Of a DNA stretch of 64,000 bases, positions 18,081 to 35,294 are shown piece by piece. The number at the start of each line of letters is the position of its first letter. Within the stretch, counting starts at the first letter, position 1. The notes below the pieces were generated by a model, which saw only the letters and a program-made list of their open reading frames with translations, was not told the origin of the DNA and searched no databases. The position numbers were made by a program, and so were the translations under genes. The stretch is from Embleya scabrispora (lineage in GTDB: Bacteria; Actinomycetota; Actinomycetes; Streptomycetales; Streptomycetaceae), in contig NZ_MWQN01000001.1 in NCBI RefSeq assembly GCF_002024165.1, positions 248,001-312,000 of the forward strand, written 5' to 3'.

Positions 18081-18174
18081 GCCCAACAAAAAGCCCCCGC
18101 CGCCGACACGACACCACCACACCGACCCGCCCACCCCCCGACCCACCCCCCGACCCGACCCCCACCCCCTCACC

Positions 18175-29815: not shown

Positions 29816-31030
29816 TCAGCGAATCGGCACGTCCGCCAACGTGCGGGCGATGACCAGGCGTTGGATCTCGCTGGTGCCCTCGAAGATGGTGTAGATCGCG
29901 CTGTCGCGGTGCATGCGCTCGACCGGGTACTCGCGGGTGTAGCCGTTGCCGCCGAGGATCTGCATCGCCGCCGAGGTCACCCACTTGGCGGTCTCGCCCG
30001 CGTACAGCTTCGACATCGAGCCCTCGGCCGCGGTGAACGGCTGCTTCGTCGCGGCCATCCACGAGGCGCGCCAGGTGAGCAGGCGGGCCGCGTCGATCCG
30101 GGTGCGCATGTCGGCGATGGTGAACGCGACGCCCTGGTTGTCGATGATGGGCCGGCCGAACTGCTCGCGGACCTGGGCGTATTCCAGCGCCACCTCGTAG
30201 GCGGCGCGCGCGATGCCGACCGCCTGGGCGGCGACCGCCGGGCGGGACGACTCGAAGGTGGCCATCGCCGCGTTCGAACGCGCGGAGGTGCCGGACCTGG
30301 CCCGCGCGATCCGCTCGTCGAGCTTGTCCTTGCCGCCGAGCAGGCAGTCGCCGGGCACCCGTACGTTGTCCAGGATCACCTCGGCGGTGTGCGACGCGCG
30401 GATCCCGTGCTTCTTGAACTTCTGCCCCTGGGACAGTCCCGGCGTGTTCGGCGGGATCACGAAACTGGCCTGCCCCCGTGAGCCGAGCGCGGGGTCGGTG
30501 GTGGCGACCACGACGTGCACGTGTGCGATACCGCCGTTGGTGGCCCAGGTCTTGACCCCGTTGAGGATCCAGTCGCCGGTCGCCTCGTCGTGGTCGGCCC
30601 GGGTGCGCATCGAGGAGACGTCGGAGCCGGCGTTCGGCTCGGACGAGCAGAACGCGGCGACGCGGACGTCGTCGGGCGTGCCGAACAACTCCGGCGCCCA
30701 GGTCACGATCTGCTCCTGGGTGCCGTTGGCCACCAGGCCCGCCGCGGCGAGCGCGGTGCCGGACAGTGCCAGGCCCAACCCGGCGTCGCCCCAGAACAGT
30801 TCCTCCATGATCAGCGGAATGCTCAGGCCGGTGGGGTCGAAGGCCTGGGTGCTGAAGAAGTCCAGCGAGTAGAGTCCGATCTTGGCGGCCTCCTGGATGA
30901 TCGGCCAGGGGGTCTCCTCGCGCTCGTCCCACTCCGCGGCGGCCGGCCGCATGGTCTCCGCGGCGAAGGTGTGCACCCAGTCGCGGATGGTGGTCTGGTC
31001 CTCGTTCAGGGCGAGGCTGAAGGCGGTCAT
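29816..31030 (-). CDS. acyl-CoA dehydrogenase
   Basis: A 404-residue flavoprotein with the normal ACAD order: N-terminal helical domain ([20 protein letters not shown]), FAD/substrate beta domain ([16 protein letters not shown], about residue 130), and C-terminal helical domain with [28 protein letters not shown]-type end (about 360-390) containing the usual catalytic Glu. The ATG at 31030 gives the expected family length. It is alone on its strand apart from the VOC gene 143 bp upstream. The acyl chain is not predictable. Confidence 0.88.
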
Positions 31031-31173
31031 GGGTGGCGGGCCCCCGGGACATCGTCGAATTGTTACCGGCTGGTAGCTTGAGTGTGTCGCCGTCGCCGTG
31101 GGGCCGTCAAGGGGCGTCGAGAGGTGTCGACGAATCCGCCCGGCCCGATGGATCCGACCGAGGTGCCCGACGG

Positions 31174-31569
31174 TCAGATGCCGGGCCGATAGCGGATCGG
31201 ATGCTCGTCCGGGACCTGCACCACACAGATGCGTACACCGTCGGGATCGGCGATCCACATCTCGTCGAGTCCCCACTCCTCGCGGCGCGGTGCGCGCAGC
31301 ACGGTGGCGCCCCGGTCCACGAGTTCGCGGTGGGTGGCCGGCAGGTCCCGCACCTGGAGCCACAGCCGCAGATCCTCGCCCCCGGGCCCGCCGCCGGTCG
31401 CGGTGCCGGAGACCTCGAGAAAGCCGCCGCCGAGGAAGAACACCGTCCCGCGATGGATCCCGGTCCCGAACTCGCGGGCGATCGCGAGGCCGAGCACGTC
31501 GCGATAGAAGACCAGCGAACGCTCGGGATCGACGGGGCGCAGCAGGATACGACCGGAAAGTACGTCCAT
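31174..31569 (-). CDS. VOC/glyoxalase-fold protein
   Basis: A 131-residue single VOC domain built of two beta-alpha-beta-beta-beta modules (ILLRPVDPERSLVFYRDVLG; WIADPDGVRICVVQV). Candidate metal ligands include a Glu in the first module (GGGFLEVSGT) but the typical His at strand one is replaced. It may be a dioxygenase-like, bleomycin-resistance-like or lyase-type enzyme. Function is unassigned. Confidence 0.75.
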   Translation of the reverse strand: MDVLSGRILLRPVDPERSLVFYRDVLGLAIAREFGTGIHRGTVFFLGGGFLEVSGTATGGGPGGEDLRLWLQVRDLPATHRELVDRGATVLRAPRREEWGLDEMWIADPDGVRICVVQVPDEHPIRYRPGI

Positions 31570-31644
31570 CCTCCGAGTTTCGCCCCGATGCCCCCATTTC
31601 CAACCCTCACCCCCTCAGAACCCGTCGCCCACCCTCGCGCGGGG

Positions 31645-31820
31645 CGCAGGTGAGGTCGGGGCGCAGGTGAGGTCGGGGCGCTGGCGGGGGCGAGGGGCGG
31701 ACGGGGTCGGGGCGCTGGCGAGGTCGGGACGCAGGCGGGGCGCCGGCGGGTCGAGGGGCGGACGGAGTCGGGACGCAGGCGGGGTCGGGACGCAGGCGGG
31801 GCGCCGGCGGGTCGAGGTCA
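31645..31820. repeat. G-rich 17-bp and 60-bp direct repeats
   Basis: Next to the minisatellite, a different set of repeats is seen. GCGCAGGTGAGGTCGGG is repeated in tandem near 31645-31680, and a longer unit of the form GGCGCCGGCGGGTCGAGG with flanking GGGACGCAGGCGGGG recurs at about 31725-31820. These look like older, more diverged expansion of the same tract. No gene is supported. Confidence 0.6.
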
Positions 31821-32575
31821 GGCGGGCCGAGACCGGGCACGGCACCGGCGGGGCGGGGGGCGGGGGGCAGGCGGGCCGAGACCGGGCACGGCACCGGCGG
31901 GGCGGGGGGCGGGGGGCAGGCGGGCCGAGACCGGGCGCGACACCGGCGGGGCGGGGGCGGGGGGCAGGCGGGCCGAGACCGGGCGCGACACCGGCGGGGC
32001 GGGGGGCGGGGGCAGGCGGGCCGAGACCGGGCGCGACACCGCCGGGGCGGGGGGCGGGGGCAGGCGGGCCGAGACCGGGCACGGCACCGGCGGGGCGGGG
32101 GGCGGGGGGCAGGCGGGCCGAGACCGGGCACGGCACCGGCGGGGCGGGGGGCGGGGGGCAGGCGGGCCGAGACCGGGCACGGCACCGGCGGGGCGGGGGG
32201 CGGGGGCAGGCGGGCCGAGACCGGGCGCGACACCGCCGGGGCGGGGGGCGGGGGGCAGGCGGGCCGAGACCGGGCGGCACCGCGGGGCGGGGGGGGGGGC
32301 AGGCGGGCCGAGACCGGGCACGGCACCGGCGGGGCGGGGGGCGGGGGGCAGGCGGGCCGAGACCGGGCACGGCACCGGCGGGGCGGGGGCGGGGGGCAGG
32401 CGGGCCGAGACCGGGCACGGCACCGGCGGGGCGGGGGGCGGGGGGCAGGCGGGCCGAGACCGGGCGCGACACCGCCGGGGCGGGGGGCGGGGGCAGGCGG
32501 GCCGAGACCGGGCGCGACACCGCCGGGGCGGGGGGCGGGGGCAGGCGGGCCGAGACCGGGCAGGGCACCGGGGGG
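31820..32575. repeat. G-rich minisatellite, 16 copies of ~48 bp
   Basis: The core GGCGGGCCGAGACCGGG starts at the same phase 16 times (GCCGAG at 31826, 31875, 31924, 31972, 32020, 32068, 32117, 32166, 32214, 32263, 32307, 32356, 32404, 32453, 32501, 32549). Spacing is 48 or 49 bp, with one of 44. Two sub-variants alternate after the core, GCACGGCACCGG and GCGCGACACCG(G/C)C. Each unit carries G-runs of four to nine on the plus strand, so G-quadruplexes are likely. Single-base length changes break every reading frame, so the open frames through it are a consequence of composition, not a gene. Confidence 0.92.
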
Positions 32576-32706
32576 GGTGGGGGTGGGCGCGCCGATGGTG
32601 TTGCTTGGTCGGGCAGTTGGGTGCGCGGGTGGACAGGTGGCGGGAAATGGCCGGCTGTCGGTGTTCCGGGCCGGCAGGGTGGGCCGTCGACGAAGGGTGG
32701 CATCGC

Positions 32707-33726
32707 ATGGTGGGGAACGCGGAGCGGGTGCGCGGGAGCATGTTCGGGTTGGCGTACGGGGACGCGTTGGGCGCGCCGACGGAGTTTCTGTCGTACGCGC
32801 AGATCGTGCGCCGGTACGACCTGCCCGGACCGATGGACCTGGAGGGCACGCCGGCCGAGGTCACCGACGACACCCAGATGGGCCTGGCGGTGGCCCGGGC
32901 GGTGATCGACGCACGCGCCGACGCCGGGGCGTTCACCGCCGAGCGGCTGACCCCGCTCCTGGTGAACCGGTTCCTGGCCTGGTGGGACTCCCCCGAGAAC
33001 ACCCGCGCGCCGGGCCACACATGCATGTCCGCATGCGCGGAACTGGCCGCCGGCCGAGCGTGGCCCGACGCCACCCGGCGCGGCTCCAAGGGCTGCGGCG
33101 CCAACATGCGGGTCACCCCGCTGGGCCTGCTCGACGGCGTCGACGAGGCCGACCGGTGCGGCGCGGCCCAACTCCAGGCCGCGATCACCCACGGGCACCC
33201 CACCGCGCTGGCCGCCTCGGACCTGACCGCGACCGCCGTACACGCGCTGCGCACCGGCGCGCCGATCCCCGAACTCCCCGGCCTGCTGCGCGCGCACGCC
33301 GAGGCGCAGCGCGAGGTGTACCGGGGCGACTGGCTCGGCGACGACCTGTGGCGCGGCCCGTTCGCCGACACCCCGGAGGGGTTCGTCGCGCGCGGTTGGG
33401 ACGAGTGCCTGGCCGTGCTCGACCGGTTGGACCAGGCCGTGGCGGAGGGCGACCGCCGCGCCGACCCGTGTCGGATCACCGGCGCGGGGTGGATCGCCGA
33501 GGAGGCACTGGCCACGGCGGTGTTGTGCGTCCTGCTGTACCGGGACGACCCGCGCTCGGCCGTCGCCCGGGCGGCCGCCTCCTCCGGCGACTCGGACTCG
33601 ATCGCCGCGTTGGCCGGCGCGATGATCGGCGCCGCACACGGCATCGACGCCTGGCCCGTCGCGTGGTCCGAGCGCATCGAATACCGCGCCGAACTCGCCG
33701 AGACGTCGGCGGCGCTGGCCGGGTAG
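32707..33726 (+). CDS. ADP-ribosylglycohydrolase family protein
   Basis: A 339-residue all-helical enzyme of the ADP-ribosylglycohydrolase family (DraG/ARH3). It has GSMFGLAYGDALGAPTEF at the N-terminus, the first metal motif DDTQM at residues 54-58, and a second metal motif DSDSIAALAGAMIGAAHG near residue 297. These bind the two Mg ions needed to remove ADP-ribose from protein or small-molecule targets. The ATG at 32707 has AAGGGTGG upstream; longer starts run into the minisatellite. There is no partner ADP-ribosyltransferase nearby. Confidence 0.87.
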   Translation: MVGNAERVRGSMFGLAYGDALGAPTEFLSYAQIVRRYDLPGPMDLEGTPAEVTDDTQMGLAVARAVIDARADAGAFTAERLTPLLVNRFLAWWDSPENTRAPGHTCMSACAELAAGRAWPDATRRGSKGCGANMRVTPLGLLDGVDEADRCGAAQLQAAITHGHPTALAASDLTATAVHALRTGAPIPELPGLLRAHAEAQREVYRGDWLGDDLWRGPFADTPEGFVARGWDECLAVLDRLDQAVAEGDRRADPCRITGAGWIAEEALATAVLCVLLYRDDPRSAVARAAASSGDSDSIAALAGAMIGAAHGIDAWPVAWSERIEYRAELAETSAALAG

Positions 33727-33806
33727 ACCCGAGCCGGCGGCGGCTTCGAACACCGAATCGGCTCCCGCCTTGCGTATCCGTCGGGATTCTTTGCGAAGAT
33801 TCACGG

Positions 33807-35294
33807 ATGGGAAAGATCCATGCCGCCGACCGGGCGGCCTTCGCGTGGGTGGCATCGCATCATGTGCCGTGGGCGAACAAGGCGTTGCCGGCCTTGTCGC
33901 GAGCGGCCAACCATTCGCGCCTGTGGGCGGTGACCGGTGCGGGGATGGCGCTTTCCGGCGGGCGCAGCGGGCGCCGGGCGGCGTTGCGCGGTCTGGGTTC
34001 GGTGGCGCTGGCGTCGACGGTGAGCAATGTGCTGCTCAAGAGCTGGGTGCGCCGGCCGCGTCCGGTGATCGACGCGGTGCCCATGGCGCGTCGGCTGAGC
34101 CGGCAGCCGTGGACCACCTCGTTCCCGTCCGGGCATGCCGCCTCGGCGGCCGCGTTCGCCACCGGCGTCGCGCTGGAGTCGCGCCCGCTGGGCGTGGCGG
34201 CCGGCGCGCTGGCCGGCTCCGTGGCCTTCTCCCGGGTGTACACGGGTGTGCACTACCCGGGTGACGTGCTCGCGGGCGCGGCGCTCGGCGCGGGCCTGGC
34301 GGCGGTGACGCTGCGCTGGTGGCCGACTCGGCCGGTGGAGGCCGCGACCGCGCCGCAACCGCGCGGCAAGGTGCCGTCGCTGGTCGACGGCGACGGCCTG
34401 GTGGTCGTGGTGAACGCCTCGGCCGGCCCCGAGGGCGACACCGCGCAGCGGCTGCGCGAACTGCTGCCCGCCGCGAAGGTGGTCGAGCGCGGTCAGGACG
34501 GCGACCTGGTCGCGCTGCTGTGCGAGGCGGCCCGGGAGGCCCAGGTGCTCGGTGTCGCGGGCGGCGACGGCAGTGTGAACTGCGCGGCGCGGATCGCGCT
34601 GGACCGCGGCATGCCGCTCGCCGTCTTCCCGGCGGGCACGCTCAACCACTTCGCGGGCGACCTGGGGCTGACCCGGCTCGACGACACCGCGCAGGCGCTC
34701 ACCGCGGGCGAGGCCGTCCTGGTGGACGTCGCCGAACTCCAGCGCGACCACTCGCACCCGTTCTCCGACGACGGCGAGGAGTTGGGCCCGGAGTTGTTCC
34801 TGAACACGTTCTCGCTCGGCGTGTATCCCGATCTGGTGCGCTTCCGCGAAGAGTTGGAGCGGAAGATCGGCAAGTGGCCGGCCATGCTGGTCGGCCTGGT
34901 CCGGGTGCTGCGGGACGCGGGCCCGGTGAAGATGCGGGTCAACGGTCGGCCGAGGTCGTTGTGGCTGATCTTCCTCGGCAACGGGGAGTACGCCCCGGAG
35001 GGCTTCGCGCCCACGTATCGCCCCGACCTCACCGACGGCCTCCTCGACGTACGCATCGTCGACGCCTCCCGCCCGCTGGCCCGTACCCGACTGGTCGCCG
35101 CCGTACTGTCCGGCACACTCGGCACCTCGCGGGTCTACGAGGCGTCCACGGCGCGCACGATGCACCTGTCCGAGATCCAGGAGGGCGCCGAACTCGCGGT
35201 GGACGGCGAGGTGCGTCCCGGCGCCTCCCAACTCCGCGTCGCCAAGGGCCGCCGCCTGATGGTCTACCGCCCGGAGGGCGCCCTCCGCGACTGA
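33807..35294 (+). CDS. PAP2 phosphatase-diacylglycerol kinase fusion
   Basis: A 495-residue two-domain membrane-lipid enzyme. The N-terminal PAP2 domain (about 1-175, several hydrophobic helices) has all three phosphatase motifs: KSWVRRPRP, PSGHAAS and SRVYTGVHYPGD. The C-terminal half is a DAGK/YegS-like lipid kinase with VVNASAGPEGD, GGDGSVNCAA (where Ser replaces the usual Thr of GGDGT) and PAGTLNHFAGD. Such fusions occur in actinobacteria and should dephosphorylate and rephosphorylate lipids such as phosphatidate and diacylglycerol. Confidence 0.87.
   Translation: MGKIHAADRAAFAWVASHHVPWANKALPALSRAANHSRLWAVTGAGMALSGGRSGRRAALRGLGSVALASTVSNVLLKSWVRRPRPVIDAVPMARRLSRQPWTTSFPSGHAASAAAFATGVALESRPLGVAAGALAGSVAFSRVYTGVHYPGDVLAGAALGAGLAAVTLRWWPTRPVEAATAPQPRGKVPSLVDGDGLVVVVNASAGPEGDTAQRLRELLPAAKVVERGQDGDLVALLCEAAREAQVLGVAGGDGSVNCAARIALDRGMPLAVFPAGTLNHFAGDLGLTRLDDTAQALTAGEAVLVDVAELQRDHSHPFSDDGEELGPELFLNTFSLGVYPDLVRFREELERKIGKWPAMLVGLVRVLRDAGPVKMRVNGRPRSLWLIFLGNGEYAPEGFAPTYRPDLTDGLLDVRIVDASRPLARTRLVAAVLSGTLGTSRVYEASTARTMHLSEIQEGAELAVDGEVRPGASQLRVAKGRRLMVYRPEGALRD

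Follow-up and report, generated by a model that had tools for sequence, protein, structure and literature searches.

Intergenic minisatellite and VNTR loci are known from bacteria, mycobacterial MIRU-VNTR being an example, and the array described here resembles such loci in its head-to-tail units of tens of base pairs, its position in a spacer, its non-coding character and its unit variants. It differs from MIRU-VNTR in being one locus rather than a dispersed family and in being unusually G-rich on one strand, and unlike at VNTR loci, the difference known here is absence between species, with one genome representing each species. A second parallel is the human CEB1 minisatellite, which has a G-rich unit of 39 nt, folds into quadruplexes in vitro and is destabilised through them in yeast without Pif1 (excerpt of PMC2673046). 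The array resembles CEB1 in unit length and in that one strand of each unit carries several G-tracts, but it is bacterial, its quadruplexes are predicted only, and we claim no sequence relationship. Minisatellites are numerous in Streptomyces, with 973 of 15–63-bp units in one genome (excerpt of PMC10720549), and an excerpt of PMC4060949 describes the tandem repeats of longer units in prokaryotes as generally not suppressed. Our literature search found no description of this particular array.

The window, that is, the whole stretch of 64,000 nucleotides that was analysed, covers 248–312 kb of a 7.0-Mb contig of Embleya scabrispora. The minisatellite is located in the spacer between divergent VOC/glyoxalase-like and ADP-ribosylglycohydrolase genes, and the features of the locus are as follows.

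31174–31569, minus strand: VOC/glyoxalase-like gene, 131 aa, divergent from the ADP-ribosylglycohydrolase gene (PF00903, E 1.9e-12)
31570–31611, no strand: 42-bp block directly upstream of the VOC gene, conserved with congener G001 with 4 mismatches
31640–31818, plus strand: degenerate G-rich array adjoining the minisatellite upstream (TRF period ~17 at 31640–31801 and ~61 at 31674–31817)
31819–32587, plus strand (G-runs): 48/49-bp G-rich minisatellite of 16 head-to-tail units, one of 44 bp, the last degenerate (TRF, exact core count)
32666–32706, no strand: 41-bp block directly upstream of the ADP-ribosylglycohydrolase start, conserved with congener G001 with 2 mismatches
32707–33726, plus strand: ADP-ribosylglycohydrolase gene, 339 aa, start set at ATG by choice (PF03747, E 2.3e-64)

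TRF describes the minisatellite (31819–32587) as 15.9 copies of a 48-bp period with 94% matches and a score of 1307. The core GGCGGGCCGAGACCGGG occurs exactly 16 times, with starts from 31821 to 32544 (span 31821–32560) and spacings of 49, 49, 48, 48, 48, 49, 49, 48, 49, 44, 49, 48, 49, 48 and 48 bp. An earlier note on this DNA had described a G-rich array of 16 copies at 48–49 bp, once 44, and both the exact core count and TRF bear this out; the array does lie at 31820–32575, where the note had placed it, but its true end is ~12 bp further and the note had missed the degenerate upstream array, perhaps an older one. When 31600–32700 was shuffled 200 times with dinucleotides preserved, 196 shuffles gave a TRF row with a score of at least 50, the best being 183. 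These comparisons confirm that the minisatellite is real and far beyond shuffled sequence, with head-to-tail repeats in the ~10–100-bp range of bacterial minisatellites.

The first 19 bp of the unit, CAGGCGGGCCGAGACCGGG, are unchanged in 16 of 16 units, and the differences in the rest of the unit consist of linked point changes and of G-run length; the single-G length differences could in part be homopolymer sequencing errors. The exact unit sequences of units 1–15 follow the order AABCDAAEFGAHADD (eight variants), which does not fit the two alternating variants that had been proposed: with simplified variant types, units at lag 2 agree in 2 of 13 cases, fewer than the 4.3 expected. Agreement was 7 of 14 at lag 1 (expected 4.65, p 0.10) and 6 of 10 at lag 5 (expected 3.38, p 0.05), with seven lags tried, and these lag tests gave no significant sign of block duplication in the variant order.

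Unit lengths of 48, 49 and 44 bp shift the reading frame, so the array is non-coding and, as the earlier note held, not a protein repeat. All six reading frames run across the array without stops because the plus strand contains only 0.3% T, which is no evidence of coding, and a minus-strand ORF over part of the array (31607–32326) had no Pfam match. A search of 30000–34000 against Rfam at a lax threshold returned a single match, outside the array, with E 0.44 and below the gathering score. A CRISPR array was ruled out, since the segments between cores are near-identical copies and not unique spacers.

The array stands out by the density of its quadruplex motifs on one strand, and base composition explains a large part of that density. 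Sixteen non-overlapping G3+N1–7 motifs lie on the plus strand of the array, as had been predicted from its G-runs, compared with 9.8 ± 1.7 in 500 mononucleotide shuffles; this amounts to 16 motifs in 769 bp, whereas no 800-bp segment of 40 sampled stretches has more than 5 on a strand. The region 31600–32600 holds 17 motifs on the plus strand and 1 on the minus strand, and the repeated G-tracts of the array thus fit a quadruplex motif on one strand in the manner of CEB1. Folded with RNA parameters, a unit reaches −32.4 kcal/mol with a quadruplex versus −15.9 kcal/mol without, and the former energy is not beyond that of 200 shuffles (−31.7 ± 8.6 kcal/mol). By G4Hunter, scored over 48 bp at a time, the window has stronger quadruplex candidates than the array: the top plus-strand score (1.98, at 31665) falls in the degenerate upstream array. 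The largest absolute G4Hunter score of the window (−2.56) belongs to a C-rich stretch at 18122–18169 that overlaps the 12-bp repeat CCCGACCCACCC.

We compared the locus in its own genome (G000) with one genome from each of three congeners (G001, G002 and G003). In the nearest, G001 (95% ADP-ribosylglycohydrolase identity), the gene order is the same, the spacer is 181 bp and the array is absent; G002 (85% identity) keeps the gene pair with a spacer of 343 bp and also lacks the array; and in G003 (80% identity) the gene lies on a 4.5-kb contig with neither the array nor a VOC match. The spacers of G000 and G001 can be aligned only over the 42 bp beside the VOC gene and the 41 bp beside the ADP-ribosylglycohydrolase gene, leaving an unaligned middle of 1,054 bp in G000 versus 98 bp in G001. 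In two further genomes of the same family a VOC gene neighbours the ADP-ribosylglycohydrolase gene, with divergent orientation in G004 and co-directionally in G020, and the stretches taken from these two contained no array of at least 5 units.

From these comparisons we think it likely that the array is a recent, lineage-specific, non-coding G-rich minisatellite that grew by tandem duplication and has probably little or no selected function. Growth would have occurred by replication slippage, unequal recombination or both, in the central part of the spacer, where constraint between the two divergent genes is weak, and would have spared the blocks next to each gene; the adjoining, perhaps older G-rich array was possibly its source. 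Slippage may have been promoted by the predicted quadruplexes on the G-rich strand and by negative supercoiling between the divergent promoters. For Embleya, a linear chromosome of 7.1 Mb and a second replicon of 4.2 Mb have been described (excerpt of PMC13152386), and the assembly analysed here is similar in size and layout. In it, a strong dnaA match lies at 3.33 Mb on the same contig, ~3.05 Mb from the array, with a weaker dnaA-family match on another contig. If forks run from the dnaA region towards the window, the G-rich strand would be the leading-strand template.

A different reading is that the array is a cis-regulatory element of variable copy number, whose quadruplexes alter supercoiling or RNA polymerase access and thereby tune one or both neighbouring genes. 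Its position invites this idea: it lies between two divergent genes, close to the ADP-ribosylglycohydrolase gene as the earlier note had recognised (the PF03747 match has an E value of 2.3e-64), with the start 119 bp past the array end. The 600 bp upstream of that start carry 10 quadruplex motifs on the plus strand and none on the minus strand, and quadruplex motifs have been used for promoter prediction in GC-rich bacteria (PMC5801747). However, the array is missing in 3 of 3 congeners that keep the ADP-ribosylglycohydrolase gene, and the conserved blocks adjoin each gene, outside the array. The wider comparison drew on 109 homologue loci (29 from a genome search plus the best 80 of 581 from a contig scan), of which 90 gave a usable match with over 600 bp of upstream sequence and were examined; some of the 109 are paralogues, and two (L020 and L047) are apparently the same contig. 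Within 1.2 kb upstream, 5 of these 90 loci had a TRF array with a score of at least 100.

L052: 32 bp, 2 copies
L064: 36 bp, 11.6 copies, with overlapping periods
L098: 25 bp, 3 copies
L102: 357 bp, 2 copies, score 1122, close to the gene
L113: 21 bp, 2.9 copies

The arrays at L064 and L102 indicate that repeats near the ADP-ribosylglycohydrolase gene do occur, but all five arrays are built of other units and the unit of the minisatellite was found at none of these array-bearing loci among the 90 examined. Over 600 bp ahead of the homologues, each strand has on average ~0.1 quadruplex motifs, with a maximum of 2. A repeat present in 0 of 3 congeners, where the arrays at 5 of 90 homologue loci all have other units, does not behave as a conserved cis-regulatory element; the influence on the downstream gene that had been proposed is not supported by the comparison, and we regard cis-regulation as unlikely. 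A narrower version, in which the newly grown quadruplex array serves in this species only as a copy-number-tunable buffer of supercoiling or transcription between the divergent promoters, seems to us slightly less probable again.

The 19-bp core, invariant in 16 of 16 units, could be a hint of a selected site, and could be explained if the array bound a protein of chromosome organisation or replication. Chromosome-organisation sites such as parS and matS are present in several dispersed or conserved copies. A core search of the genome, which the earlier note had called for, placed all 16 exact copies in the array (16 of 16 in the 10.96-Mb assembly), and GGGGCGGGGGGCGGGG likewise occurs 12 times in the own genome, always within the array. 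Core sites with one mismatch number three off-locus, versus three for a reversed-pattern control. With no dispersed copies in the own genome, near-matches elsewhere only at the level of the control, none in the congeners, and the main dnaA match ~3 Mb off on the same contig, the earlier suggestion of a chromosome-organisation site does not hold up, and we consider a protein-binding array very improbable. A two-unit query against 41 genomes gave matches at E ≤0.001 in 33 of the 41, own genome included; those outside the locus are partial and GC-rich, three of them in the own genome. The best off-locus match (77–79%; L010 in G029) is a GGC-rich repeat with a ~60-bp period and was not taken as homologous. 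The spacer had no match in a distant plasmid search run with the BLAST low-complexity filter on, a setting that may hide G-rich sequence. Finally, errors are common in long GC-rich repeats and in G homopolymers, and many of the 48/49 differences are single Gs, but the array sits inside a 7.0-Mb contig and its units 1–15 comprise eight exact variants that follow no regular order; we see very little chance that faulty assembly produced the array or its exact copy number.

The reading of the array as a recently grown minisatellite can be viewed alongside the tandem repeats of the genome at large, sampled here over 859 kb: the window itself and 40 stretches that lie more closely together towards the left end of the contig. 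Large tandem arrays are frequent in this sample, which fits that reading: non-overlapping arrays with a TRF score of at least 150 number 35 (4.07 per 100 kb; two in the window), a count that takes arrays whether or not they are coding and includes several from one dispersed repeat family, and 4 reach a score of at least 1000 (one in the window). They are commoner here than in the samples from G001 (6 of at least 150 and 1 of at least 1000 in 400 kb, on two contigs of a fragmented assembly) and from another family member, G011 (5 and 1, likewise over 400 kb), whereas TRF density over all scores is equal in G000, G001 and G011 (29.3, 29.5 and 29.8 per 100 kb). G-rich arrays showed no strand bias by replichore (8 and 8 on the left, 2 and 4 on the right). 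A 76-bp array near C2:603003–603560 has matching repeat sequence in G001 and no match across the array in G002, which indicates that arrays differ in age. Among other arrays, a locus near the start of C2 (L163, G000:C2:8359–9755) combines a 231-bp unit ×3.1 with a neighbouring 17-bp unit ×~24, and a GGCCGGCGTTTGAGGCC-like word builds tandem arrays both in the own genome (L161, L139 and L140) and in G001 (L202 and L192).

A dispersed inverted repeat elsewhere in the own genome is more striking than the minisatellite. This element, ~1–2 kb long, has at least one ~207-bp minus-strand unit, then a centre, then at least one plus-strand unit, a layout present at 12 of 12 own-genome loci examined (L229–L240, including L236, G000:C2:957800–962000, and L232, G000:C1:1284500–1288000; further examples are L158, L166 and L168). 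The 10 centres read are 438–505 bp long, all with GGTTTCG or CGAAACC words, and the element centres have stop-free stretches of 121–166 aa. A 20-mer of the ~207-bp unit, allowing at most 1 mismatch, has 135 sites in G000, 8 in G001, 0 in G002 and a single one in G003; of the 101 family genomes, the remaining 97 have none. G001 also has diverged copies of the element. At one locus the flanks are 622 bp apart in G001 versus 2,028 bp in G000, and at a second they are 171 bp apart in G002 (versus 1,862) and 208 bp in G003 (versus 1,943), so the element seems to be missing there. It had no plasmid match, and is possibly an unusual mobile or satellite element.

Apart from its dense one-strand quadruplex motifs, the array looks like an ordinary tandem repeat and not a conserved switch. 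As a minisatellite it could be of use for typing strains and could provide a natural test of whether quadruplex-rich repeats are unstable in a GC-rich bacterium, for which a close congener with both genes and without the array provides a ready comparison.
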